DNA from: Mucilaginibacter sp. SJ
Lineage (GTDB): Bacteria > Bacteroidota > Bacteroidia > Sphingobacteriales > Sphingobacteriaceae
Direction: 5' to 3'
DNA length: 64,000 bases
Assembly (NCBI RefSeq): GCF_028993635.1
Contig: NZ_CP118631.1
Location: 5,394,001 to 5,458,000 of the forward strand
In this document: piece after piece, positions 1 through 12,506 of the stretch
Layout of the letters: each line of letters opens with the position of its first letter
Position numbering within the stretch: position 1 is the first letter of the stretch
Notes under the pieces: model-generated
Database searches by the model: none
The model's input: only the letters and a program-made list of their open reading frames with translations
What the model was told of the DNA's origin: nothing
Program-made: the position numbers and the translations under genes

Positions 1-55
1 ACCACCGCATGGTGTAAAGCTTATCCGGGCTATGTAGATAGATTGTTTAATATGA

Positions 56-90
56 AAAAAGGCCTTTGCTTATTTGGCAAAGGTCTTTTT
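56..90 (+). terminator. Hairpin terminator, first copy
   Basis: Arms 56-69 and 77-90 pair over 14 bases with one G-U, flanked by A5 on the left and T5 on the right, so it could work in both directions. The same module recurs at 865-898, so it is part of the direct repeat. Confidence 0.6.
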
Positions 91-864
91 AGTCTGTCGT
101 AGAGTTAAGTTAACCCATAAAATCAATAGTTAAATTGGATAACCTACATAAGTTGAACCCCTCTGGGGTTCGGGTAGGGGGGACGTCATGTCCCCTCAGG
201 GTCTCTCGCAGAGGACCCTGAGGTTCACCGCGTTTTGGGTATTTAGAACAGCTGATCTGGTGTATACATCATGTCCCTTCAGGGTCTCTCGCAGAGGACC
301 CTGAGGTTCATCGAGTTTCGGGTATTTAGAACAGCTGATCTGGCGTATATATCAATCTGCATAGCGTATACATCAAGGTCCTCTGCGAGTTTAAGTTTAC
401 CCATAAAATCAATGGTCAATTGGGTAATCCTGATAAGTTGAACCCCTCCGGGGTTCGGGTAAGGGGTGTGACGTTATTTCTACAAACCTGTTCCCCCTCC
501 GGGGGATTTTACAATTTAATAAAGATGTATTAGTTGCCCAAGGACAGATGCACCAGAGGTGCAAAAGGTTTGTAGCTCGTAAAGTTATAGAATACCCTTT
601 GCCCCAGAGGGGCAAAACACGACGACTTGCTGTTTAAACGACAAGCAATTTTGTGGGTAAGCTTAAATCTGCGAAAGACCCTGATGGGACCCTGAGGTTC
701 ATTGAGTTTCGGGTATTTAGAACAGCTGATCTGGCGTATATATCAATCTGCATGGCGTATACATCAGGGTCCTCTGCGAGAGACCCTGATGGGACGTTAA
801 TATACTTTAAAATCCCACCGCATGGCGTAAAGCTTATCCGGGTGATGTAAGCGATCCTTTATAA

Positions 865-898
865 AAAAGGCCTTTATCTTATTCGATAAAGGCCTTTT
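865..898 (-). terminator. Bidirectional hairpin terminator
   Basis: Arms 865-878 and 885-898 are perfectly complementary over 14 bases with A/T tracts on both sides. It lies just beyond the stop of the minus-strand gene at 920-1828 and probably ends that transcript. Confidence 0.7.
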
Positions 899-919
899 CT
901 ATGTGATGTAGTTTGAAAA

Positions 920-1828
920 TCAATTTGGCACATCGTAATGATATATCGGCGAAAAAACACCTTCACTTGTAGTGTAGTAGCCTTTGCCATCGGGCTGAAA
1001 GCCTATAGCCTCGCCCTGTTTTTCAACTTTATATACCAGCTCACGTGGTTTACGTACCATGGTTTCCCATATGGGTTCGTTATGCTGGCGGCGCCAGTAG
1101 TAAACCTTGTCGTAGCTTTTTAGCAGGATCTGCTGCCCGTCTTTAGAGATATCGCCGGCCGTTATCCATTTAAAAGGTTTAAAACCTGCGAAGAACAATT
1201 TGCAGCGTTTGGTTAATATAGTTGTTGTATTGGCCTGGTATTTTAATGGAGCGGTGTAAACCGCGACGGTGTCACTCCTTTTGCTTACAATGATCAATTG
1301 TTTGCCTATCGGGTCAATCATCAACGTTTCAGCATCTTTAGCGCCATCCGGATATTTAAAATTTGCCCGCACAGCTTTTGTGTTTGTAATTGCCTTATCA
1401 CCTGTAGCCCATGATTTTTTTTCGGCCATGCGGTAAACTGTAATATATGGCCTGTTTTGATTGTTATCGCCTATATCGCCAAGGTAAACGTAACTTTTAC
1501 CTTTTTCCGGTCCGGGGCCAACATCAATATCTTCACAATCCTGTACCCCCAGCTTTTGAGTGCTATCTCCCTTAAAATAAATGGTTGATTTGAGTTTGCC
1601 TTCGGCTGTTATAGCAAAAAAACGGCTGGTATCGCCGCTGTCGTTATGTACATAGTAGGTGTCGGGACTAATAGACGATGCTGCAATACCCGACGTTTCA
1701 TCCATCTCTTTATCATTCAGGGTGCCTGTAATGTCCTGCCTGTCGAGCAGCCTGTGCTTGGCAAAAGCCCCCATAAAAAGCAGGGATACAATGGGTAAGA
1801 GTATATTTAATTTTTTTGATCGACTCAT
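920..1828 (-). CDS. Secreted beta-propeller-like protein
   Basis: A 302-residue protein with an N-terminal hydrophobic segment (about residues 8-22), so probably exported or anchored in the envelope. The body has repeated beta-propeller-like motifs: ETSGIA (about 44), HNDSGD (about 61), CEDIDVGPG (about 98), LGDIGDNN (about 116), DAETLMID and GEAIGF. No catalytic motif is recognised. Related proteins in this phylum are annotated only as hypothetical. The frame can be extended upstream to a TTG at 1846; the ATG at 1828 was preferred because it gives a normal Lys-rich signal start. It stands alone on the minus strand with a terminator at 865-898. Function unknown. Confidence 0.75.
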   Translation of the reverse strand: MSRSKKLNILLPIVSLLFMGAFAKHRLLDRQDITGTLNDKEMDETSGIAASSISPDTYYVHNDSGDTSRFFAITAEGKLKSTIYFKGDSTQKLGVQDCEDIDVGPGPEKGKSYVYLGDIGDNNQNRPYITVYRMAEKKSWATGDKAITNTKAVRANFKYPDGAKDAETLMIDPIGKQLIIVSKRSDTVAVYTAPLKYQANTTTILTKRCKLFFAGFKPFKWITAGDISKDGQQILLKSYDKVYYWRRQHNEPIWETMVRKPRELVYKVEKQGEAIGFQPDGKGYYTTSEGVFSPIYHYDVPN

Positions 1829-1965
1829 TCTGTTTCTTGCAAACAATAACGCAAATAAAGCGCGTTAGTATGAAGTTGACATTAATTATTTGATTTTGTT
1901 ACGATTCTATGAAAATTATGTAACAAACAGGGCAGATGGTACACAATATTCGTACCATGAAACAT

Positions 1966-2409
1966 TTATGCCGATTCAAAAGCATGTAATAAAGCGTTTT
2001 GCCTGTATATTTCGGCAGGGGTACGGTAATCGGCCAGTTCCAGTTCCTGAACATATTTGCAATTACAGGGGTGCCCGGGTTCAATAAAAACAGGCATATC
2101 ATAGCCCAGTTGCTGGTAATATGGAGTGATGAACGCCTTTACGGGCAGGTCGTTTGCTGCGGAAACAATTTCGGTAGTAAGCTTTTTTAAAGGTTTCAAA
2201 AGCAGTTTGATTTCGCAAAGCCTGAAGTTATCATAAAGCGGAATCCAGCGTATGATATTATCAGTGCTAACAGCTATGGCATTGTGTTTTACCCCGTTAA
2301 GGATACCAAGGCTGACTTCATTGTTATTTAAAAGACTAATAATCATAACCTGCTGACCGATATAACGACTAAAGATTATAAGTTGATCGGCTACGCTTAT
2401 ATGTTTCAT
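1966..2409 (-). CDS. Hypothetical protein, 147 aa
   Basis: I do not recognise the family. It starts at an ATG, has no signal peptide or membrane segment and looks like a small cytoplasmic protein. The N-terminal half is rich in Ile, Leu and Asn with a predicted beta-rich pattern (about residues 8-60); the C-terminal half has a Cys pair (HPCNCKY, about residues 113-119) and a helical tail. Codon use matches the neighbours and the frame is intact, which favours a real gene. It is a single minus-strand gene between the propeller protein and the desaturase. Confidence 0.65.
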   Translation of the reverse strand: MKHISVADQLIIFSRYIGQQVMIISLLNNNEVSLGILNGVKHNAIAVSTDNIIRWIPLYDNFRLCEIKLLLKPLKKLTTEIVSAANDLPVKAFITPYYQQLGYDMPVFIEPGHPCNCKYVQELELADYRTPAEIYRQNALLHAFESA

Positions 2410-2682
2410 TTTACTAATATTTTTAGCAAAATACGGAAATTAGTTGGTGAAATGCAAGGGAGAATTTGACATGATGAAAGTTTGGTTATCATGGTTTTGG
2501 AGTTTTACATCGCTACCGCAAGGGTCCTTGCTTGTGGGTATCATGCTAAGCTATGCGAGAGGCTAATCAGGTTGTATACCTAAACGCGGGCCACAAGCGG
2601 GGACGCTTGCGGCAGCGGGGCAAAAAAGATGGAAAAATAATATTAATGATGATTCCTAAATAAGTCAACTATCGCCAACAAA
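2410..2682. other. Gene-free gap with degenerate repeats
   Basis: No coding signal seen. It holds GC-rich partly palindromic stretches (for example CAAGGGTCCTTG near 2520 and CAAGCGGGGACGCTTG near 2595), resembling degraded intergenic repeats. A desaturase terminator follows at 2683. Confidence 0.5.
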
Positions 2683-2706
2683 AAAGGGCCTTTTTCAAGG
2701 CCCTTT
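2683..2706 (-). terminator. Terminator of the desaturase gene
   Basis: A perfect 10-bp stem (AAAGGGCCTT, loop TTTC) followed on the minus strand by T6, ten bases beyond the stop codon of the desaturase gene. Confidence 0.85.
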
Positions 2707-2715
2707 CTCATTTTC

Positions 2716-3753
2716 TTATTTTTCAACGTCTATAAGCTCCGGCTTTGTGGCTTCGGATTTGGTGAGGTCAATATCTGGTTTTGAAATGTCTGTTAACGCT
2801 ACACGACCGCGGTCTTTACGCAGGATGCGGTTAAAAAGTGAGATCTCCCTGTCAAACAAAAACTGGAAGAATAGTTTGGTCCATGAGGTATGATAATGTA
2901 AGGTATCATAGTATTCAGGGGCAGTTTTCCTGATCTCGGGAAGTTTGTTCCATGGGATAGAAGGAAAATCATGGTGCTCATTGTGGAAGCCTACGTTAAA
3001 GGCTACGGCATTAAAATTACCATAATAGCTGTATGTTTCCTGCTCTTCGGTAACGGTAAGGTAATGCTCCTGGATCCATCGGGCGCCCAGCGGGTGCAGG
3101 CCAACCGAAAACGAGAAACTCAACAGCAGGAACGCCACTGCATGCCAGCCCATAAAATAAGCGATTGCGGTTGTAAATGCTGCCTGTAATAACCAGTTTG
3201 TCAGGATCCAGCCGTCAAAAGGATGGATTTCCCTTAAACGTGAAAGGCGGAACAATTGAAATACCGGGAAAAACAGCAGCCAGATTGCTTTACCAAAAAA
3301 TGAATTGCTGATCAGTTTTGCTTCCCAGCGGTTTGGCAAATCGGCATCAAGCTCATGAACGCCCTGAAATGAATGATGTTTGATGTGGTACTTTTCGAAT
3401 GAAATAGCGCTTGGTAATATTTGCGGTAAGTTGGCAAACATGGATGCCCAGCGGTTTGCGTTGCGGTTTTTAAACAGCAGCTGGTGTGTACATTCGTGGA
3501 TCATCACAAACAATGCGTGATCGGCAAAAGCGCCAAGCAAATAAGCAGCTCCGAAAACTATCCACCATGACTGGTCGCGTACAAACCAGGCTAAAACAAC
3601 CTGGAAAGCTACTAAACCAATAATGGCCCATATGGTTGCGGGGTTTTTACCAATAAGCTTTCGCAGTTGCGGAAACTCCTTCAAGATTTTTTTTGTGCGG
3701 ATACGATGAGGTTCAGACTCCTGGGAATAAACAAAATCAGTCTTTTTAATCAT
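2716..3753 (-). CDS. Sphingolipid delta-4 desaturase-like membrane protein
   Basis: A 345-residue integral membrane di-iron desaturase. The three histidine boxes are visible: HECTH (86-90), HIKHH (123-127) and HNEHH (257-261), with GLHP at 218-221. From memory, the protein matches the eukaryotic dihydroceramide desaturase family (DEGS/DES1) along its length: the N-terminal FVYS...PHRIR...ILKEFP block before the first membrane segment, SISFEKYHIKHH, and the ETYSYYG...FNVGFHNEHHDFP signature. That family inserts the 4,5 double bond in the sphingoid base of ceramide. Sphingobacteriaceae make sphingolipids, so a role on dihydroceramide is plausible; activity on another acyl lipid cannot be excluded. 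Residues 320-345 form a charged tail. Single gene with its own terminator. Confidence 0.85.
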   Translation of the reverse strand: MIKKTDFVYSQESEPHRIRTKKILKEFPQLRKLIGKNPATIWAIIGLVAFQVVLAWFVRDQSWWIVFGAAYLLGAFADHALFVMIHECTHQLLFKNRNANRWASMFANLPQILPSAISFEKYHIKHHSFQGVHELDADLPNRWEAKLISNSFFGKAIWLLFFPVFQLFRLSRLREIHPFDGWILTNWLLQAAFTTAIAYFMGWHAVAFLLLSFSFSVGLHPLGARWIQEHYLTVTEEQETYSYYGNFNAVAFNVGFHNEHHDFPSIPWNKLPEIRKTAPEYYDTLHYHTSWTKLFFQFLFDREISLFNRILRKDRGRVALTDISKPDIDLTKSEATKPELIDVEK

Positions 3754-3883
3754 ATAGTGTTAAAACGTTAAATATAACGATAACGTGCGCAAAAGTTCAT
3801 TTTTTTGTAAAAATTAATTAGTAATATTAGGAATAACCAAAATCTTCACGATCATTTCATATAAATTTTATATACAATTTACG

Positions 3884-4885
3884 TTAGTTTCGCTTAAAAA
3901 CAAGCACCTTAAAAGTATTGGGAATGGTTTTGCGTGTGCCGGGTTCAAACTGCGCAACGCTCAAATAAATTTTGTGGGTTTTGGCGTCAAGTGCCATGGT
4001 GCGCGCCCTTTCGGCGGTTTTTAGGGTTTGGATCACCTCATATTCATCAGCCGATTTTTGTTTGATGATGGTAGTGGTGCCATCGCCGCATGAGCAAAAT
4101 ATCAGTTTGGTTTCAGGGTCATAAACTACCGCGTCAACCCCGGCGCCGATTGGCAGGGTAGCAGTCACTTTGCCTGTTTTGATATCAACAACACTCACCC
4201 CCTTATTTTCGCGGCAAACGGTAAACAATTTCTGGTTAGCGGCATCAAGCGCTAAGCCGGTAGGGCCACCACAGGGGGCAAGGGGATAGTTTTTAACTAC
4301 TTTAAGGCTTTTGCTATCAATAACATTCAGGCTGCTTTTATCTTCAAGGTTATTGTAGATTTTACCTTTGCCGTCGGATACAGCAAACTCGGGGCCGCCG
4401 CCAAGTGCAACCGTGCCAACCTGCTTAAGCGTTGCCGGGTTAATTACCGATGAATTATCACTTTCGCCGTTGAAGGTAAACACCCGGTCGGAGTAGGGGT
4501 CATACATAATAGCGTCAGGGCCATTAGCATCGGTAAGGGCAATGGTAGTTATGGTTTTAAAAGTTTTCAGATCAAAAACTACTACGGCATTTGCCTTGCC
4601 ATCACTAATGAAACCACGATTAAGTTTATTTACAATGGCTATACCGTGAACGCCTTTCATGTTATCAATAACGCCAACCGGATTTTCGGTATCCAGGTTA
4701 ATGACATTTACAGCAGTACCATGCGATACATAAAGATTACGGTTGATCTTGTCGATAGCCAGGTAATCGTAACCACCATCACCCGGTAGCGCGATGGTTT
4801 TATCGGCCGCATAGGTTTGCGCATTCAGTTTAAAAGGAGCTATACCTGCTATGAGCAAGGCTACGGCCAAAATTTGCTTTTTCAT
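3884..4885 (-). CDS. YVTN-family beta-propeller protein
   Basis: A 333-residue exported protein (signal peptide about 1-22 ending LNAQ). It contains successive blades of the YVTN/surface-layer type: YDYLAIDKINRNLYVSHG (about 40-57), GIAIVNKLNRGFISDG, DAIMYDPYSDRVFTFNG, GLALDAANQKLFTVC, DAVVYDPETKLIFCSCGDG and TMALDAKTHKIYLSV. Such propellers are usually binding or scaffold proteins, not enzymes. It starts about 56 bases after the RND pump stop on the same strand and is the last gene of the pump operon, so it may be a periplasmic accessory to the pump. That role is inferred from position only. Confidence 0.85.
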   Translation of the reverse strand: MKKQILAVALLIAGIAPFKLNAQTYAADKTIALPGDGGYDYLAIDKINRNLYVSHGTAVNVINLDTENPVGVIDNMKGVHGIAIVNKLNRGFISDGKANAVVVFDLKTFKTITTIALTDANGPDAIMYDPYSDRVFTFNGESDNSSVINPATLKQVGTVALGGGPEFAVSDGKGKIYNNLEDKSSLNVIDSKSLKVVKNYPLAPCGGPTGLALDAANQKLFTVCRENKGVSVVDIKTGKVTATLPIGAGVDAVVYDPETKLIFCSCGDGTTTIIKQKSADEYEVIQTLKTAERARTMALDAKTHKIYLSVAQFEPGTRKTIPNTFKVLVFKRN

Positions 4886-4941
4886 TTTTCGGGAGTGTTT
4901 ATTGCCATGAAATTAAGTCCCGAATCTGTAAAAATGCTGTG

Positions 4942-7900
4942 TTAACCGTTGTGGCTTTCATTAATTTCATTTAAATGGGTGTTAAACCCTTTGCGGTACA
5001 ATATACGGAGCATTGCCGGTAAAACGATAAGCAGTAATGGCAACGCCGCTAAAAAACCCCCAATAACTGCAATTGCTAATGGCTGGTGTAATTGCGCGCC
5101 GGCACCTATGCCTAAAGCAAGCGGCAACAGGGCTATAATGGCCCCCAAAGCGGTCATTAGTTTTGGTCTTAAACGGGTACTGATGGCAAAGGTTATAGCG
5201 GCGTCAATGTTTTTATTTTCATTTTCGATAGCGCTTTCCTTAAACTGCAGGAAGGTGAAAATGGCGTTTTCGCCAATAATGCCTACAATCATAATCAACC
5301 CTGTATAGCTGCCCACATTGAGTGGCGTACCGGTAATAAATAAAGCCAGGAAGCTACCGGCGATACCTAAAATGCCAATCACCAAAATAAGCAGCGCTAT
5401 CCTGAACTGCCTGAACAGGAATAATATCACCCCAAAAACCAGTAAACAGGCAGTTATGAGGATGATAAGCAATTCTTTAAATGACTGCTGCTGCTGGGCG
5501 TAGGCTCCTCCATACTCCACGTGGTAACCCGTTGGCAGGTTTACGTTATCATGGATGGTTTTTTGAATGGATGTTATTACGGTACCCAGGTCGCTGTCTT
5601 CCAGACGGGCGCTCACTACATTCATGCTTTGCAGGTTTTCGCGATTGATCTCCGCATCGCCGGGCCTTAACTCTACCGAAGCAAGTTCGGTTATAGGGAT
5701 GAGTTTGCCGCTGGGTAAAAATATGTGCAGGTTATGGATGTCATTCACGTTAAGCGAGCGGTTACCCGGGTAAACCATGCGGATGGGTGAAAGCTGTTCT
5801 TTTTCCAGTAAGCTGCCTATTACATTACCTTCCAGCGCGGTTTGGATCTGCATCTGTAGATCGGCAGCGGTAATTCCATACTGTGCGATCTTGCTGTAAT
5901 GGGGTTGAATGCTTACCGAAGGACCGGCGATAACAATACCCGGCAGCACATCGGCAGTACCTTTTACTTTTTCAACCAGCCCGGCTATCTGCCTTGACAG
6001 GTTTTGCAGGGTTTGCTGATTATCACCGAATACTTTGATCTCGATAGGCTCGGCCGATGTGGTCAGGTCGCCAAGCATATCGGATATCACCTGGCCAAAT
6101 TCAACCTGCAGCGCGGGTTGGGTTTCCTCAACCATTTTACGCAAATCGCTGATCACCTCTTCGGTGCTTTTGGTGCGATCTTTTTTTAGCTGGATAAGAT
6201 AATCGCCGCTGTTAGGCTCTGTAATAAAAAAGCCCATTTGTGTACCCGTACGGCGCGAATAGGCAGTTACATCCGGATGCTTGATGATCTGTTTTTCTAT
6301 CTGGCGCAACATCCGGTCGGTTTCTTCCAGTGATGTTCCGGGAGGTGATTTGTAGTCGAGCACGATGGCTCCTTCGTCCATATCAGGCAGGAAGCCGGTC
6401 TCCAGCAATGGGGGGACAATCACAATTACGGCAGCCAGCGCGGCAACAATAACAAAGCTTACATAGGGGCGCAGGATAAAGAAACTAACCCACTTTTGTT
6501 GCTTAACCGTGTGTATTTCTTCTGTCTTAGCTTTTGCTGCATTTAACTTAGGCTTACGTGTTACGAGCAGGTAAATTACCGGCAAACCGATCCACGTTAC
6601 AAAGAATGAACTCAGCAAGGTAATGATCATGGTATCGGTAAGCACCTTGAAGTAGGCCCCGGCCACACCCGTCATCAAAACAAAAGGAATAAAAATTACG
6701 ATAGTACTGATAGATGAGCCTACCATGGCCGGGAAAAGGTAATCAATAGCCTTGCGCACCAAATGGCTGCTCAACTCGTCCGGGTGTTCTTCGTGTACCC
6801 TGTGGATCTGTTCAACCACCACAATGGCATCGTCAATAATTAACCCTATGGAGGCTGCGATAGCACCCAGCGTCATGATATTAAAAGTATAGCCAAGCCA
6901 GTACAATATGAGCAGTGTAAGCCCGAGTGTAACCGGGATGGTAATCAATATGGTGATACTTGCCTTGAACGATCTTAAGAAGATAACCGCCACAATAATA
7001 GCCAGGAGTAAGCCTACCCAAAGGCTGTCGCTTACGCTCCTAACCGAATCGTTCACAAAATCGGCCTGAACATAATATGGCCGGATACTTACACCCTGCG
7101 GGAGTAGTTTTTTCAGCGCGTCAATCTTATCGGCCATATCGTTACTAACCGAAATGAGGTTGGCATTGGGTTGCTTCACTACAGCTATCAGTACCCCATC
7201 ATGCCCGTTGGCGTTGATACGGGTATACTCAATCCCTTCGTTAACCTGGATGCTTGCAAAATCCTTGAGCCGTACTATCCTTTTGCGGTTGTTGCTGATC
7301 ACCAGGTCCTCCAGCTGATCTTTGGCATTGATGGTAGCATCAGTGACAGTGAGGTACATGCGCTTATAATCAGACAGATAGCCCTCTGATTTTACGAAAT
7401 TGGTAGTAGCAAGCGTATTACTGATAATATCAGGCGTAAGGCCCAACGAAGTCATTTTTTGCTGATCGAGCGTGAGCCAGTATTCTTTTAATTTACCGCC
7501 GATCACCCTGATCTCCGATACCCCGTCGACCTGCGACAGGAATGGTTTTACCGTGTATGTAGCTAATTGCCTTAATTCAATAGGGGACAGGTTATGGCTC
7601 TCCAAAGTGTAACCGCTTACCGGTAAAATGGAAGGGTTCATTTTAGCTACGCTGATATTTACATCGGCGGGAAGGTCGTTCTTGATCTGATCGATGCTCG
7701 ACTGGATACGCTGCTGGCTCAGGTCGATATCAGCATTCCAGTTGAGCAGCGCCGAAATTTCACAGCTTCCCCTGCTGGTAGTACTGCGTACCAGTTGCAG
7801 GTCGGGCACCTGCTTAATGGCATTTTCCAGCGGTTTGGTAACTGTAACCATCATTTTATTTACCGGCTGCAGGCCCTCGTCGGCAATGATTTTGATCTTT

Positions 7901-8031
7901 GGGAAAGTGATTTCAGGAAAAAGCGAAGTTTGCAGTTTTGAATAGGCAAACAAACCGCCCATAATAATCAGGGCAAGTACCAGGCCTAAAGGCTTGCGGT
8001 GGGTTATGAAGTAATTTTTTCGCTGGTTCAT
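4942..8031 (-). CDS. RND-family efflux pump, inner-membrane transporter
   Basis: A 1029-residue proton-driven RND transporter of the AcrB/CusA superfamily. It has the usual duplicated plan: TM1 (about 13-33), a large periplasmic loop, TM2-6 from about 340, a second loop from about 550 and TM8-12 near the C-terminus. TM4 carries GLIIDDAIVVVE, the double-Asp proton relay typical of hydrophobe and drug pumps. It forms a tripartite system with the adaptor and TolC protein encoded upstream. The frame extends to a TTG at 8049, but the ATG at 8031 gives the standard MNQRKNYF start; repeats at 8040-8145 lie immediately upstream. Substrate unknown. Confidence 0.92.
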   Translation of the reverse strand: MNQRKNYFITHRKPLGLVLALIIMGGLFAYSKLQTSLFPEITFPKIKIIADEGLQPVNKMMVTVTKPLENAIKQVPDLQLVRSTTSRGSCEISALLNWNADIDLSQQRIQSSIDQIKNDLPADVNISVAKMNPSILPVSGYTLESHNLSPIELRQLATYTVKPFLSQVDGVSEIRVIGGKLKEYWLTLDQQKMTSLGLTPDIISNTLATTNFVKSEGYLSDYKRMYLTVTDATINAKDQLEDLVISNNRKRIVRLKDFASIQVNEGIEYTRINANGHDGVLIAVVKQPNANLISVSNDMADKIDALKKLLPQGVSIRPYYVQADFVNDSVRSVSDSLWVGLLLAIIVAVIFLRSFKASITILITIPVTLGLTLLILYWLGYTFNIMTLGAIAASIGLIIDDAIVVVEQIHRVHEEHPDELSSHLVRKAIDYLFPAMVGSSISTIVIFIPFVLMTGVAGAYFKVLTDTMIITLLSSFFVTWIGLPVIYLLVTRKPKLNAAKAKTEEIHTVKQQKWVSFFILRPYVSFVIVAALAAVIVIVPPLLETGFLPDMDEGAIVLDYKSPPGTSLEETDRMLRQIEKQIIKHPDVTAYSRRTGTQMGFFITEPNSGDYLIQLKKDRTKSTEEVISDLRKMVEETQPALQVEFGQVISDMLGDLTTSAEPIEIKVFGDNQQTLQNLSRQIAGLVEKVKGTADVLPGIVIAGPSVSIQPHYSKIAQYGITAADLQMQIQTALEGNVIGSLLEKEQLSPIRMVYPGNRSLNVNDIHNLHIFLPSGKLIPITELASVELRPGDAEINRENLQSMNVVSARLEDSDLGTVITSIQKTIHDNVNLPTGYHVEYGGAYAQQQQSFKELLIILITACLLVFGVILFLFRQFRIALLILVIGILGIAGSFLALFITGTPLNVGSYTGLIMIVGIIGENAIFTFLQFKESAIENENKNIDAAITFAISTRLRPKLMTALGAIIALLPLALGIGAGAQLHQPLAIAVIGGFLAALPLLLIVLPAMLRILYRKGFNTHLNEINESHNG

Positions 8032-8039
8032 AGTATAAG

Positions 8040-8145
8040 CCCCACCCAAACCCTCCCCGGTAGGGAGGGCTTAATTATCTCTCTGATTGGTAGGATTTAT
8101 CAGAGAGGACTTGAATGCCCCACCCAAACCCTCCCCGGTAGGGAG
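8040..8145. repeat. Two copies of a 28-bp repeat within the pump operon
   Basis: The same 28 bases (CCCCACCCAAACCC then TCCCCGGTAGGGAG) occur at 8040-8067 and 8118-8145. A third diverged copy begins at about 26528 and a fourth near 40158. They sit between the adaptor and pump genes with no T-tract, so they are not terminators. Confidence 0.85.
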
Positions 8146-8148
8146 CGC

Positions 8149-8187
8149 TTTAAAGTCTCCCCCACCGGGGGAGATTTAGAGGGGGCT
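8149..8187. repeat. TCTCCCC/GGGGAGA palindromic repeat, copy 1
   Basis: A hairpin TCTCCCCC-ACC-GGGGGAGA followed by TTTAGAGGGGGCTT. Other copies lie at 26784-26820, 32165-32198 and 40288-40318. Here its right end forms the last three codons and stop codon of the adaptor gene. Confidence 0.85.
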
Positions 8188-9108
8188 TGTTATTTTCACT
8201 TTAGCGGTATCCGCCAGTCCGTAATTACCTGTAACCACTATTTTATCATTTGCCGAAAATTTGGGGGTTAAAATTTCCACCCTGCCGCCGGTTTCAATGC
8301 CTTTGGTTATGGCAGTTTTTACAGCAGTAGTAGGATTGATCAACTTCATTACCCAAAACTCCGTTTGTGTTTCATTGCTTAGTATGGCCGATTTTGGAAG
8401 TGATAGCGTATGCGGGCGTATCGACTTAATGATCCGCGCTTTGGCTACCAAATTTTCGGGAATGGGGTTGGTACTGTTCACTTTAAGCACAATACCCTGG
8501 GTTTGAGATAATGAATCAACAGCGGGCATTGATGAGCTTACCTGTGCCATCAGTTTTTCGCCGCCGGGCAGTACAAGCAGTACGTTCTGGTTGTTTTTTA
8601 CATAGCTACGCAGTTCATAGGGTAATTGCATCACAAATACAAAGCTTGAGCGATCGCTGATTACGGCAAGCTGTTCACCATCCTGTACATAATCGCCCTG
8701 CTGATGGTTGAGTTGGGTAACGTAGCCATTGCCGGCAGCTTTTATTTTATTAATTCCCGAAAACTTAAACGTAGTATCCAGCACATTGATGCTGTTGCCA
8801 ATACTCTGTGCTTCCTTGGTTTTTATGCTGAATAAAAACTCGCCTTTATTTACGTAATGCCCTGGCAGGATGTTCACCTTTTGGATGTAACCGTTAGCAT
8901 TGGCCTTCACAATATTTTTTTGCTGAAAAACAGATGTGGCGCTAAGGTCAATATAGTCAACCATAGCACTATCGGCGACTGAGGTTACGGTTACGGGCGT
9001 TTGAGCGGCTGTTTCTGCATCGCCGGCATCATCTGCAGGAGTGTTGCCTTTGCAACTATACAGCAAGGTTAAAAGGCCTGCAAACAGGTATATATGTTTA
9101 AATTTCAT
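8176..9108 (-). CDS. RND periplasmic adaptor lipoprotein (HlyD/MFP family)
   Basis: A 310-residue membrane-fusion protein linking the pump to the outer-membrane channel. The signal peptide ends in a lipobox-like LLYSC (Cys19), so it is probably lipid-anchored. It has a lipoyl/barrel-sandwich half around residues 66-90 (ANGYIQKVNILPGHYVNKGE), a second half around 122-150 (AAGNGYVTQLNHQQGDYVQDGE) and C-terminal beta-barrel and membrane-proximal parts. The hairpin between the lipoyl halves is very short. It begins one base after the TolC stop codon, showing tight coupling. The final codons (Ser-Pro-Leu-stop) come from an intergenic repeat. Confidence 0.9.
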   Translation of the reverse strand: MKFKHIYLFAGLLTLLYSCKGNTPADDAGDAETAAQTPVTVTSVADSAMVDYIDLSATSVFQQKNIVKANANGYIQKVNILPGHYVNKGEFLFSIKTKEAQSIGNSINVLDTTFKFSGINKIKAAGNGYVTQLNHQQGDYVQDGEQLAVISDRSSFVFVMQLPYELRSYVKNNQNVLLVLPGGEKLMAQVSSSMPAVDSLSQTQGIVLKVNSTNPIPENLVAKARIIKSIRPHTLSLPKSAILSNETQTEFWVMKLINPTTAVKTAITKGIETGGRVEILTPKFSANDKIVVTGNYGLADTAKVKITSPL

Positions 9109-9109
9109 A

Positions 9110-10357
9110 TTATTTGTTCCAGTAATTGAGCTGATTAATGAGCTGCAGCTTATTAATATTGGTTTGTGTTTTAAGATTTTTTATAGCAAGGTAATTGTTG
9201 ATAGCCAGCACCAGGTCGGCTACACGCACATCGCCGGTTTGCAGCAGTTGGGTGTCAACTTTTACCAGGCTTTCGGTGTATTTCATCTGGTCATCAATTT
9301 GATTGAGCAGTTTTTCGGAGCCATCTATCTGTTGATTTAGCTGAGCAATCTGCTGGCGGTATTGTGTATCAAAAAACGCTTTGTAGCTGCGCCGGGTATC
9401 TTCTTCTAACGAGAGCTTGCGGTACTGGATCTTACGCTGGCCTCCATCATATAATGGCAGGGTAAAACTAAAACCAATACTGGCGCCGAAATTTTTATAG
9501 GCCGGCCCACTCAGGAAATCGGAATTGTAACCGCCGTCTGCCAGTAAATTAATCTTGGGTTTGTAGGCAAAATCAACTAAGGCGCGACTGTTTACCAGCT
9601 TAAGGCTATCCGTTTTATACTGGCTGAAAAAGATGCTGTTACTAATATTGGCCCGGATAGTTTTTTGAATGCCGGGATCCTGTAGTTCGATGTAACTGGT
9701 ATCAGCAATGCCGGTTAAATAGTTAAGTGTAGTATAGTCATTTTTGTATTGCAGCTTTGCCTGCGACAAAGTTAGTTCCTGCTGTTTAAGGGTAACCAAA
9801 AAAGTAAGGTAATCGCTTTGGCGGTAAACATTGGTGCGGGTCAGTTTTTTAAGCAGCGCTTCCTCCCGGTTAAGCAGGCTGATCACTTCCTGGTTAAATT
9901 TTACCTGTTGCAGGCTGCCAAATGCCGCTATGTATTGTGCCGTGACTGCTTTTTTCAGGTCCTGCTCAGAGATTTTGGCGGTATTAAGCACCGATTGCGA
10001 TTGCAGCTTCACCGCATCTATCTGTGCAGCGATATTTTTTTTGCTATCCAGCGATTGATTGATGCCCAATAGCGCATTAAGCGTATGCTCGTTGGTGATG
10101 GCAGGGGCATAACCATAGCCGCCGGCAACCGGCGCGTAAAGACCGGCACTGTTAGCGCTTACCTGTGGCCTGTAACCTGCCCTGATCCGGAGGCTGTCCA
10201 ACTGGCCCGAAGCAACCTGATTTTGCAAATCCTTTAACAGCGGACTGTTACTTTTGGCAAGCTCCAAATAATGTTCAAGATTGTAGGTTTGTGCCTGTGT
10301 AGCAGCACTAAGCAGGCAAAATAAAAAGCCGAAAACCCAATTTATCCGGATGGTCAA
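9110..10357 (-). CDS. TolC-family outer-membrane efflux protein
   Basis: A 415-residue outer-membrane factor. The signal peptide (about 1-22) ends ATQAQ. The body shows the two TolC repeats of long amphipathic helices with Gln/Asn/Lys-rich coiled-coil character (about 95-210 and 300-410). It would form the trimeric exit duct for the RND pump. No in-frame ATG is available at the N-terminus; a TTG at 10357 gives a good signal peptide and was chosen. It lies 78 bases after the histidine kinase stop and 1 base before the adaptor start, in the same operon. Confidence 0.88.
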   Translation of the reverse strand: MTIRINWVFGFLFCLLSAATQAQTYNLEHYLELAKSNSPLLKDLQNQVASGQLDSLRIRAGYRPQVSANSAGLYAPVAGGYGYAPAITNEHTLNALLGINQSLDSKKNIAAQIDAVKLQSQSVLNTAKISEQDLKKAVTAQYIAAFGSLQQVKFNQEVISLLNREEALLKKLTRTNVYRQSDYLTFLVTLKQQELTLSQAKLQYKNDYTTLNYLTGIADTSYIELQDPGIQKTIRANISNSIFFSQYKTDSLKLVNSRALVDFAYKPKINLLADGGYNSDFLSGPAYKNFGASIGFSFTLPLYDGGQRKIQYRKLSLEEDTRRSYKAFFDTQYRQQIAQLNQQIDGSEKLLNQIDDQMKYTESLVKVDTQLLQTGDVRVADLVLAINNYLAIKNLKTQTNINKLQLINQLNYWNK

Positions 10358-10435
10358 AATAATACGTATTGTGTTAAATAATAGCTAAGCTACACGATAA
10401 TTCTGGAAAAAATTGGTAGGGGCAGTGTAACAAAT

Positions 10436-11683
10436 TTAAAAGTTGACCGTGAAGATATGGTATGGCGCTTCATAACTGTAAACCAGCTGATAACCCAAAC
10501 TTTCGCAGATTTGTTTGGATATGGTAAGCCCCAGGCCGCTGCCTTCAGATGTGGATGCTTTATGAAAGCGGGTAAAGATATTTTCAGGATTTAAGGCTAC
10601 CTGTTCGCCGGTGTTTTTGATGGTTAAATTTTCGGCTGTGAGGCTGATGATGATCTCGCCGCCTGTACGGTTATGACGTACCGCGTTGATGATGAGGTTA
10701 TTTAACAATATCTCAATAAGGTAATTGCTGGCTTCAATTTCCTTTTTGCTAATTGTTGAAATAACCGTTATTTCTTTGTCGTTGAAAATATCTTCCAATT
10801 GATACAGCAAATCATCTATAAGTTCCTGTAAATCCAGGTGCTGTCGATCGTTCAATAGTTTGTTCTCAATCTTGACCAGTAATAACAACGATTGGTTAAG
10901 CCTGCTCAGGCGCGATACCGCGCTGTAAAGGTCATTGAGTAACTTGCTTTGATGCTCACTAAAGTTTTCTGTCTGGATCAGGGTGTCCAATTTGGAGTTG
11001 ATCACCGCAATAGGGGTAAGCAGCTCATGCGAGGCGTTTTCGGTAAAGGTTTTAAGGTCTTTGTAGTCTTTTTTTACCCGTTCGGCCATGGCGGTAACTT
11101 CGGCCTGGAGTTCGTTAAACTCGTCGATAGTAGTATTGGGAGATGGCATTTCGCGGCTGTCGGTAACATTAAATAGTTTCAATTCACTCAGGATACTGTA
11201 AAATGGCTGCCAAAGCCGGCCCAATATCAGGCGGTTGGTAATTACCAACACCAGCAGCAGTAATAAGATAACGCCTATTGTAATGCCGAAGATGATCTGG
11301 ATGAGGTCTTCCGTTTCTACTTTCGATTCAACTATCAGGATTTTATAATACCTGTCGCCAACTGTCACCGAACTGACCAAACCGCGACCTGATTCCGGCT
11401 CGTCTTTTTCGCGGTAATAAGTAGTGTTAAAAAATTCGCGTTTAACCGAATTGGGTTCGGCCGAAATAAAGGTGATCTGCTGGTCTTTCGAGGCGAAAAC
11501 CTGGGGCAGGTGGTGATTGAGCTTTACGTAATCAAAAACTTCCTGCTCTTCAACCTTAAGTGAATTGTCTTTTTGATTAGTAAGGATCAGGCTGATGGCC
11601 TGGTAATAAATAACGCCGGTTATCAGCATGATAACAATAGTAGCAATTAAATTTACCCGGTTATACCTTTCCGAAAGCTTCAT
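10436..11683 (-). CDS. Sensor histidine kinase
   Basis: A 415-residue membrane sensor kinase. TM1 (about 12-33) and TM2 (about 127-150) bracket a periplasmic sensor of about 95 residues with no recognised fold. A linker follows, then the H-box ENASHELLTP with phospho-acceptor His219, the N-box NNLIINAVRHN (about 328) and the G-box GSGLGLTISKQI (about 382). Its ATG overlaps the response regulator stop by one base, so the two are co-translated. It probably senses the pump's substrate or envelope stress and controls the operon it sits in. Confidence 0.92.
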   Translation of the reverse strand: MKLSERYNRVNLIATIVIMLITGVIYYQAISLILTNQKDNSLKVEEQEVFDYVKLNHHLPQVFASKDQQITFISAEPNSVKREFFNTTYYREKDEPESGRGLVSSVTVGDRYYKILIVESKVETEDLIQIIFGITIGVILLLLLVLVITNRLILGRLWQPFYSILSELKLFNVTDSREMPSPNTTIDEFNELQAEVTAMAERVKKDYKDLKTFTENASHELLTPIAVINSKLDTLIQTENFSEHQSKLLNDLYSAVSRLSRLNQSLLLLVKIENKLLNDRQHLDLQELIDDLLYQLEDIFNDKEITVISTISKKEIEASNYLIEILLNNLIINAVRHNRTGGEIIISLTAENLTIKNTGEQVALNPENIFTRFHKASTSEGSGLGLTISKQICESLGYQLVYSYEAPYHIFTVNF

Positions 11684-12360
11684 TATTGATCGGCGAATTT
11701 GTAGCCCATACCATAGGCTGCATAAATATAATCCTTGCCGCCGGCTTCCATTATTTTTTTACGGATGTTTTTAATATGCGAGTAAATAAAGTCGAAATTA
11801 TTGGCCAGATCGATGCCATCGCCCCATAAATGTTCGGCAATGGCGTTTTTTGAAATTACTTTGCCTTTGTTGGAGATGAAATAGATGAGCAATGCAAACT
11901 CTTTACGGGTAAACTTTACCGGGATGCCGTTTACAGCTACCGTTTTAGCCATCAGGTCGATACTGAGCTCATTGAAGTTAAGTACATTGCTGCCATTGAA
12001 CATTTTACGCCTGATGATGGCCGATACCCTCGCCTTCAATTCCGAAAGGTGAAAGGGCTTTACCAAATAATCATCAGCACCGAGGTCAAGGCCCTGCAGG
12101 CGGTCATCGAGCGAGTTTTTGGCCGATATGATGAGCACCCCGTCGGTGTAGTTATTGGCTTTAAGCTTTTTTAATATATCAATACCATTACCGCCGGGCA
12201 GGGTGATATCCAGCAGGATGCAATCATAACGGTACAATTCAACCTTGGCGAGGGCTGCTGCATAGCTGGCCGCGGTTTCACAAATGTTGCCGGCTTCGGT
12301 AAAATATTCTTCAATACTTTCGCGCAGGCCCTCTTCGTCTTCGATGATGAGTATTTTCAA
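11683..12360 (-). CDS. OmpR-family response regulator
   Basis: A 225-residue regulator with a receiver domain (acidic pocket ED at 7-8, phospho-acceptor Asp51, conserved Lys in DYLVKPF) and a C-terminal winged-helix DNA-binding domain (about 130-222, ending in the YAAYGMGYKF type motif). The start used is TTG at 12360, which gives the canonical MKILIIEDEE; no ATG is better placed. It is the first gene of the six-gene pump operon and is likely to activate it. Confidence 0.93.
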   Translation of the reverse strand: MKILIIEDEEGLRESIEEYFTEAGNICETAASYAAALAKVELYRYDCILLDITLPGGNGIDILKKLKANNYTDGVLIISAKNSLDDRLQGLDLGADDYLVKPFHLSELKARVSAIIRRKMFNGSNVLNFNELSIDLMAKTVAVNGIPVKFTRKEFALLIYFISNKGKVISKNAIAEHLWGDGIDLANNFDFIYSHIKNIRKKIMEAGGKDYIYAAYGMGYKFADQ

Positions 12361-12506
12361 AACTTTTTTTTGTAAAGTTAAAATGCCAATTTGTACAGAT
12401 TCTGGATTTTGAGTAAAGGCTAACAGCTATCTCACAGATTTTGTACAGAATGCCTAAGCAAATTTGCATTTAGCTTGTTGCAAGTTAAAAACAAAATCTG
12501 ATCATT

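Follow-up and report, generated by a model that had tools for sequence, protein, structure and literature searches.

A DEGS-family membrane desaturase gene in Mucilaginibacter and its possible sulfonolipid and sphingolipid substrates

The desaturase locus

The window analysed here, a 64,000-nucleotide stretch of the genome of Mucilaginibacter sp. SJ, carries near its start a gene for a membrane desaturase with the following features.

2716–3753, minus strand: DEGS-family membrane desaturase gene, 345 aa (open reading frame; Pfam Lipid_DES and FA_desaturase; 38% identity to a provisional human DEGS1 sequence)
3640–3744, minus strand: Lipid_DES N-terminal domain (residues ~4–38), containing FVYS and PHRIR (PF08557, 45–49 bits, cut-off 23)
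2893–3570, minus strand: FA_desaturase domain, residues 62–287 (PF00487, 94.8–96.3 bits)
3484–3498, minus strand: first histidine box HECTH, residues 86–90 (H86 and H90 invariant in 15 aligned bacterial homologues)
3373–3390, minus strand: second histidine box YHIKHH, residues 122–127 (H123, H126 and H127 invariant in 15 aligned homologues)
3019–3039, minus strand: ETYSYYG signature, residues 239–245 (common to the window protein and the provisional DEGS1)
2962–2985, minus strand: third histidine box HNEHHDFP, residues 257–264 (also in the provisional DEGS1; HNEHHDF invariant in 15 homologues)
2683–2706, strand not assigned: G+C hairpin, terminator-like, directly past the desaturase stop codon (consensus match only)

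The open reading frame starts with ATG and contains no internal stop codon. In the Pfam search its product scores 45.4 bits against Lipid_DES (PF08557; E = 5.5e-12, cut-off 23, residues 4–38) and 94.8 bits against FA_desaturase (PF00487; cut-off 29.7, residues 62–287). All of the motifs named in the initial annotation are present in the 345-residue frame, namely the FVYS/PHRIR block (starting at residues 7 and 15), the three histidine boxes (HECTH at 86, YHIKHH at 122 and HNEHHDFP at 257) and ETYSYYG (239). No NCBIfam model, and hence no curated model of an acyl-lipid or carotenoid enzyme, exceeds its cut-off for this protein, with CrtW, DesA and GntB reaching 25.5, 25.5 and 25.9 bits against cut-offs of 350, 500 and 380, respectively. 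The Lipid_DES family model matches the 6.82-Mb genome at one place only, the window gene, and FA_desaturase matches it at five further places.

The desaturase is a stand-alone gene. The terminator-like hairpin at 2683–2706, which is listed for the plus strand and which by eye is ended by a run of T on the minus strand too, suggests that the desaturase gene ends its own transcript; five terminator-like sites occur in 2400–4000, versus a mean of 1.7 (sd 1.4) in shuffled sequences. An operon reading was rejected: relatives of the genome's own serine palmitoyltransferase (SPT), cysteate C-fatty acyltransferase (CFAT), KBL and GNAT372 were absent from beside the desaturase genes of this family (DES) at 80 named loci, where flanks of up to 8 kb, and often less, were examined, and in 20 other stretches.

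Adjoining the desaturase upstream, at 3884–4885, lies a gene for a YncE-like beta-propeller (73 bits, below the cut-off of 400), relatives of which occur in the DES flanks of 25 of the 80 named loci; we know of no link between this protein and lipids. A small open reading frame at 7999–8271, between an RND pump and the next gene, contains a repeated PTQTLPGRE unit and is probably an intergenic repeat element. Rfam returned nothing in window positions 1–12500.

Relationship to DEGS1 and distribution of the family

DEGS1, the eukaryotic dihydroceramide delta-4 desaturase, shares with the window protein the Lipid_DES and FA_desaturase domains, three histidine boxes and the ETYSYYG and HNEHHDFP motifs. 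Compared by BLAST with a provisional human DEGS1 sequence, which did not come from a database and whose sole check was its own Pfam scores (74.3 and 91 bits), the window protein exhibits 38.2% identity over 322 aligned positions (E = 3e-80). Searched against the sequences of the PDB, the window protein matched nothing at E ≤ 1, so that the provisional sequence could not be exchanged for that of a solved DEGS structure. The window protein differs from DEGS1 in being bacterial, in having a C-terminal tail that is longer by about 25 residues and in belonging to an organism that also has a capnoid synthase. The other FA_desaturase proteins of the same genome share the FA_desaturase family, but have no Lipid_DES match; the three compared with the provisional DEGS1 (L134, L136 and L137, with L135 left out) have no real similarity to it, two giving chance-level fragments and one giving no match. 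Three proteins from another class of Bacteroidota (L021, L022 and L023, from genomes G247, G145 and G317) belong to the same family and are 41–43% identical to the window protein, but are nearer to the provisional DEGS1 (43–49% identity). The nearest, L021, is 48.7% identical to it, and both Pfam domains are found in its gene.

Two trees place the window protein among other Lipid_DES proteins, together with proteins of Mucilaginibacter and Chitinophagaceae. The initial annotation had claimed a DEGS-family match along the whole length of the protein, and this claim holds: both domains score above their cut-offs, the similarity extends over the 322 positions and the protein groups with its Lipid_DES relatives. 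By these sequence tests the window protein looks like DEGS1 and is a member of the Lipid_DES family, and the gene product is a DEGS-family protein along its length. The name dihydroceramide desaturase, however, is premature and should not be given to it until its product has been seen.

The provisional DEGS1 does not join the window's clade in either tree; it groups with L021, L022 and L023 (support 100/99), a bacterial clade relevant to the question of where the eukaryotic enzyme arose. No direction of transfer is readable, because DEGS1 is a long branch and a single, provisional row. The first tree held this one eukaryotic row and one distant outgroup row, an Anabaena plasmid desaturase (a single distant hit among plasmids, 24.5% identity), and the second had no outgroup. 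The Anabaena row was rejected as a root for its too long branch, and three scans of viral contigs as a source of a eukaryotic-type outgroup gave no confirmed relative. Of the 80 named loci, 13 entered the trees. The first tree was built without seven DES rows, which were near-copies apart from one truncated sequence, and the second without these seven, thirteen more and the Anabaena row. The second tree includes several f94-family rows that span the whole interval between two stop codons and therefore start upstream of the probable initiation codon. L083, whose frame is interrupted by a stop, is not part of alignment A4.

Two further sequence variants were noted within the family. A second DES clade (L003, L004, L005, L008, L012 and L028), five of whose six members come from the window's genus, has ETKSYYG instead of ETYSYYG, which possibly reflects a different substrate or reaction. 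The proteins L221–L227 of genus g209 (family f94) have DIHFxRPIEIIKEHP, or a block near it, instead of the N-terminal EPHRxRT, together with ETHSYYG, and their Lipid_DES scores are low (26–39 bits).

The DEGS family is not rare in Bacteroidota. The Lipid_DES model matches 40 of 395 sampled genomes of the phylum, in 25 of 170 genera, 19 of 247 genomes of the window's own class and none of 14 control genomes. Besides the window's genome, 36 genomes of Mucilaginibacter were scanned and 30 match; half of the six that do not are less than 75% complete, and second copies are found in G020 and G022. Mucilaginibacter gossypii (99%) and M. gossypiicola (98%) are the nearest named relatives, in a list that may omit records very near the window's genome.

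Base synthases in genomes that carry the desaturase

A close relative of the ceramide-forming enzyme of animals thus occurs in a soil bacterium in which the backbones of both sphingolipids and sulfonolipids are encoded. The SPT of the window's genome (L210:6422-7630) scores 618 bits against PDB 3a2b, a solved enzyme of the Sphingobacterium type, and 748 bits against the NCBIfam equivalog NF047600 (cut-off 640), so that dihydroceramide could plausibly be made in this genome. Its neighbours on that strand encode a myo-inositol-1-phosphate synthase, an NAD-epimerase and a member of the GNAT family, an arrangement that resembles an operon for inositol sphingolipids. The enzyme that forms the sulfonolipid base, CFAT, is encoded at L211:6442-7686 (615 bits to PDB 28eh). 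A lysine is conserved in SulA according to the available text of PMC9304779; by our own count of alignment positions it corresponds to residue 280 of the genome's CFAT, a position that holds lysine in 8/8 CFAT-type rows, alanine in 14/14 SPT and SPT-like rows, and N and T in KBL and BioF. The CFAT gene is next downstream of genes read by eye as ftsQ-ftsA-ftsZ (L211:2064-7686), which would put sulfonolipid synthesis next to genes of cell division.

As described in the available portions of PMC10191378 and PMC9304779, the sulfonolipid pathway (CFAT/SulA, CapC) builds an N-acylated 2-amino-3-hydroxy base; these portions name no base desaturase. The sulfonolipid base shares with the substrate of DEGS the N-acylated 2-amino-3-hydroxy core, but its C1 carries a sulfonate. 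With SPT and CFAT in the same genome, a C4 desaturase could meet two kinds of N-acylated base. Both synthases are present in 11 of 98 and 12 of 247 own-class genomes in two samples, amounting to 16 distinct genomes with the window's included, although the review PMC10191378 suggests, in the part available, that sphingolipids and sulfonolipids may be mutually exclusive in Bacteroidota.

The two own-class samples overlap, and the smaller is the class part of the phylum sample, counted by hand. DES in the 98-genome sample is found in 9/11 genomes with both synthases, 0/7 with SPT alone and 6/80 with CFAT alone. The corresponding counts for the 247-genome sample are 8/12, 0/8 and 9/203, with DES in 2/24 genomes that have neither; one of the nine CFAT-alone carriers, G058, was later shown to have an SPT-like protein of 47% identity. 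Together the samples contain 27 distinct DES carriers, 25 of them with CFAT and 12 with SPT (G058 counted). Co-occurrence of DES and CFAT was rejected as evidence by itself, CFAT being near-universal (215 of 247 genomes; Fisher p = 1.0 for the association). DES is enriched with SPT, which favours sphingolipids: it is present in 8/20 SPT genomes versus 11/227 others (p = 2e-5) in the 247-genome sample and in 9/18 versus 6/80 (p = 9e-5) in the 98-genome sample, where the window's genus supplies 6 of the 15 DES genomes. All six DES carriers that were tested within the genus, among them the window's genome, have SPT. At the thresholds used, DES is found in 0/9 distinct SPT-only genomes versus 11/16 with both synthases (Fisher p = 0.001), and by genus in 0/6 versus 6/10 (p = 0.034). 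These Fisher tests are weak because they ignore descent.

A synthase inventory was made of 11 DES genomes chosen for having no SPT at ≥ 55% identity; it read all but one of its 31 matches, the exception being a weak one in G544, and did not include G467, G528, G554, G604 and G628 (68% complete). CFAT was found in ten of the 11, including G058 with its SPT-like protein, and G595 (99% complete) had neither synthase. Ten of the 11 thus have no SPT-like protein, and nine of these ten have CFAT without a recognisable SPT. SPT had initially been scored as absent by a limit of 55% identity or E ≤ 1e-135, which misses a divergent protein such as that of G058, so that the SPT counts are lower bounds. 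Retention of DES where no SPT is recognisable makes it unlikely that dihydroceramide from canonical SPT is the sole substrate across the class.

Two of the nine genomes, G445 and G206, have their DES within the window's clade, which in the second tree comprises 26 rows: nine with both synthases, these two with CFAT only and 15 of unknown status. G206 also encodes one further synthase-like protein, 24–32% identical to the four references. The branching of the DES tree does not correspond to SPT status, and the CFAT-only rows are scattered among rows with both synthases; with 12 and 8 labelled rows of 60, six changes are needed, against a shuffled mean of 6.6. In the other classes of the phylum sample, 25/25 DES carriers have an SPT-like protein (46–52% identity), eight of them, all from one family, have CFAT and the remaining 17 have no CFAT at E 1e-125. 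This pattern is weak because SPT-like proteins are near-universal in those classes (284/297 genomes) and because the CFAT search was confined to that single strict threshold.

Candidate substrates and reactions

The 4,5-double bond is the difference between ceramide and dihydroceramide. The window gene encodes a bacterial membrane desaturase of the DEGS family, predicted to be a di-iron enzyme. By analogy with DEGS1 it would use O2 and electrons to remove hydrogens at C4–C5 of the long-chain base in lipids of the N-acylated 2-amino-3-hydroxy-alkane type; the di-iron chemistry, the activity and the position of the double bond are all predicted. In the window's own class the substrate would include N-acyl-capnine, a sulfonolipid whose backbone is expected in the 25 of 27 carriers with CFAT. 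This species has SPT too, and in it dihydroceramide may come second or even be the principal substrate; the product would be a 4-unsaturated capnoid base, a 4-unsaturated sphingoid base or both, in the envelope. We give a probability of about 0.5 to this reading, that the protein desaturates N-acylated long-chain bases at C4 and that sulfonolipids are a likely substrate in its own class. The double bond could be placed in the capnoid base as well as, or instead of, the sphingoid base. Counted against this explanation are the near-universality of CFAT, the enrichment of DES with SPT, the 17 of 25 other-class genomes with no CFAT, G595 with neither synthase and the lack of an operon link. The overall balance points to a family that acts on N-acylated long-chain bases, be they capnoid or sphingoid; with moderate confidence, we rank sulfonolipids first for the window's own class and regard dihydroceramide as a real rival for this species.

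That rival takes the protein to be a plain dihydroceramide delta-4 desaturase, as the initial annotation had proposed; dihydroceramide would be converted to 4E-unsaturated ceramide, and sulfonolipids would be left untouched. The proposal gained from the discovery of a genuine SPT (748 bits against a cut-off of 640) in a cluster resembling an inositol-sphingolipid operon, and it is further favoured by the DEGS-family identity of the protein, the enrichment of DES with SPT, the presence of SPT in 6/6 congeneric carriers and the SPT-like proteins of the 25/25 other-class carriers, a figure to be read against the background of 284/297. Its restriction to dihydroceramide fared less well: CFAT is also present in the window's genome, nine inventoried DES genomes have CFAT without a recognisable SPT, G445 and G206 among them lie in the window's 26-row clade and none of the nine SPT-only genomes, which lack CFAT, carries DES. 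In this strict form we consider the proposal rather unlikely.

The desaturase could instead act, by desaturation or hydroxylation, on another lipid such as phospholipid acyl chains or N-acyl amino acid lipids, its Lipid_DES similarity being ancestral only. The nearly complete carrier G595, with neither base synthase by this search, and the missing genomic link of DES to base synthesis at the 80 named loci and 20 stretches are consistent with such a role, which is nevertheless improbable given that the N-terminal Lipid_DES block is kept and that a base synthase or SPT-like protein accompanies DES in 25/25 other-class and 25/27 own-class carriers, although the background is itself high.

A C4-hydroxylase of long-chain bases, giving phyto-type bases and not a double bond, is a very unlikely reading. 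In its favour, the histidine boxes and fold of membrane di-iron enzymes are common to desaturases and hydroxylases, two AlkB hydroxylase entries are among the four best structural matches of a weak model, and residue 241 of ET(Y)SYYG varies in the family: among 148 locus rows, in which some genes are represented twice, seven have K, five have F and one has N. The window protein has the same Y as the provisional DEGS1 at this residue, which may count against a hydroxylase. This AlphaFold model of the window protein has a mean pLDDT of 63 and, being weak, carries no argument. Its top four VIA-align matches (Z 11.5–12.5) are the two AlkB entries (11.5 and 12.1) and two chloroplast motor-complex chains, followed by a next row at 4.0 and by stearoyl-CoA desaturase 4ymk at 3.8; Foldseek gave no match at E ≤ 0.001 with the same model, and nothing in a viral structure library matched at that threshold either. 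In the available text of PMC11765627, DEGS2 appears under the formation of phytoceramide.

Returning to the C4 desaturase of N-acylated bases, we propose more tentatively that, where a bacterium has both pathways, a DEGS-family enzyme introduces a delta-4 double bond of the sphingosine type into capnoid bases, with ceramides perhaps as additional substrates. In that case the ceramide desaturase of eukaryotes would represent a single branch of a family distributed across Bacteroidota. A stand-alone DES gene in a soil bacterium with both base synthases makes the question of its substrate testable. The sulfonolipid of Salinibacter is said to contain an unsaturated base. In the open-licence literature, titles and the beginnings of abstracts revealed no bacterial DEGS homologue and no 4-unsaturated bases of Mucilaginibacter, which is not proof of novelty, and the available portions of four papers that deal with sphingolipids and sulfonolipids of bacteria (PMC10191378, PMC10626005, PMC11211663 and PMC9304779) name no bacterial base desaturase. 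According to the text available, the sphingolipids of Black Sea bacteria vary in unsaturation (PMC11334938) and the sulfonolipids of Salinibacter vary in saturation (PMC2596770), and both observations count against unsaturation being rare in general.
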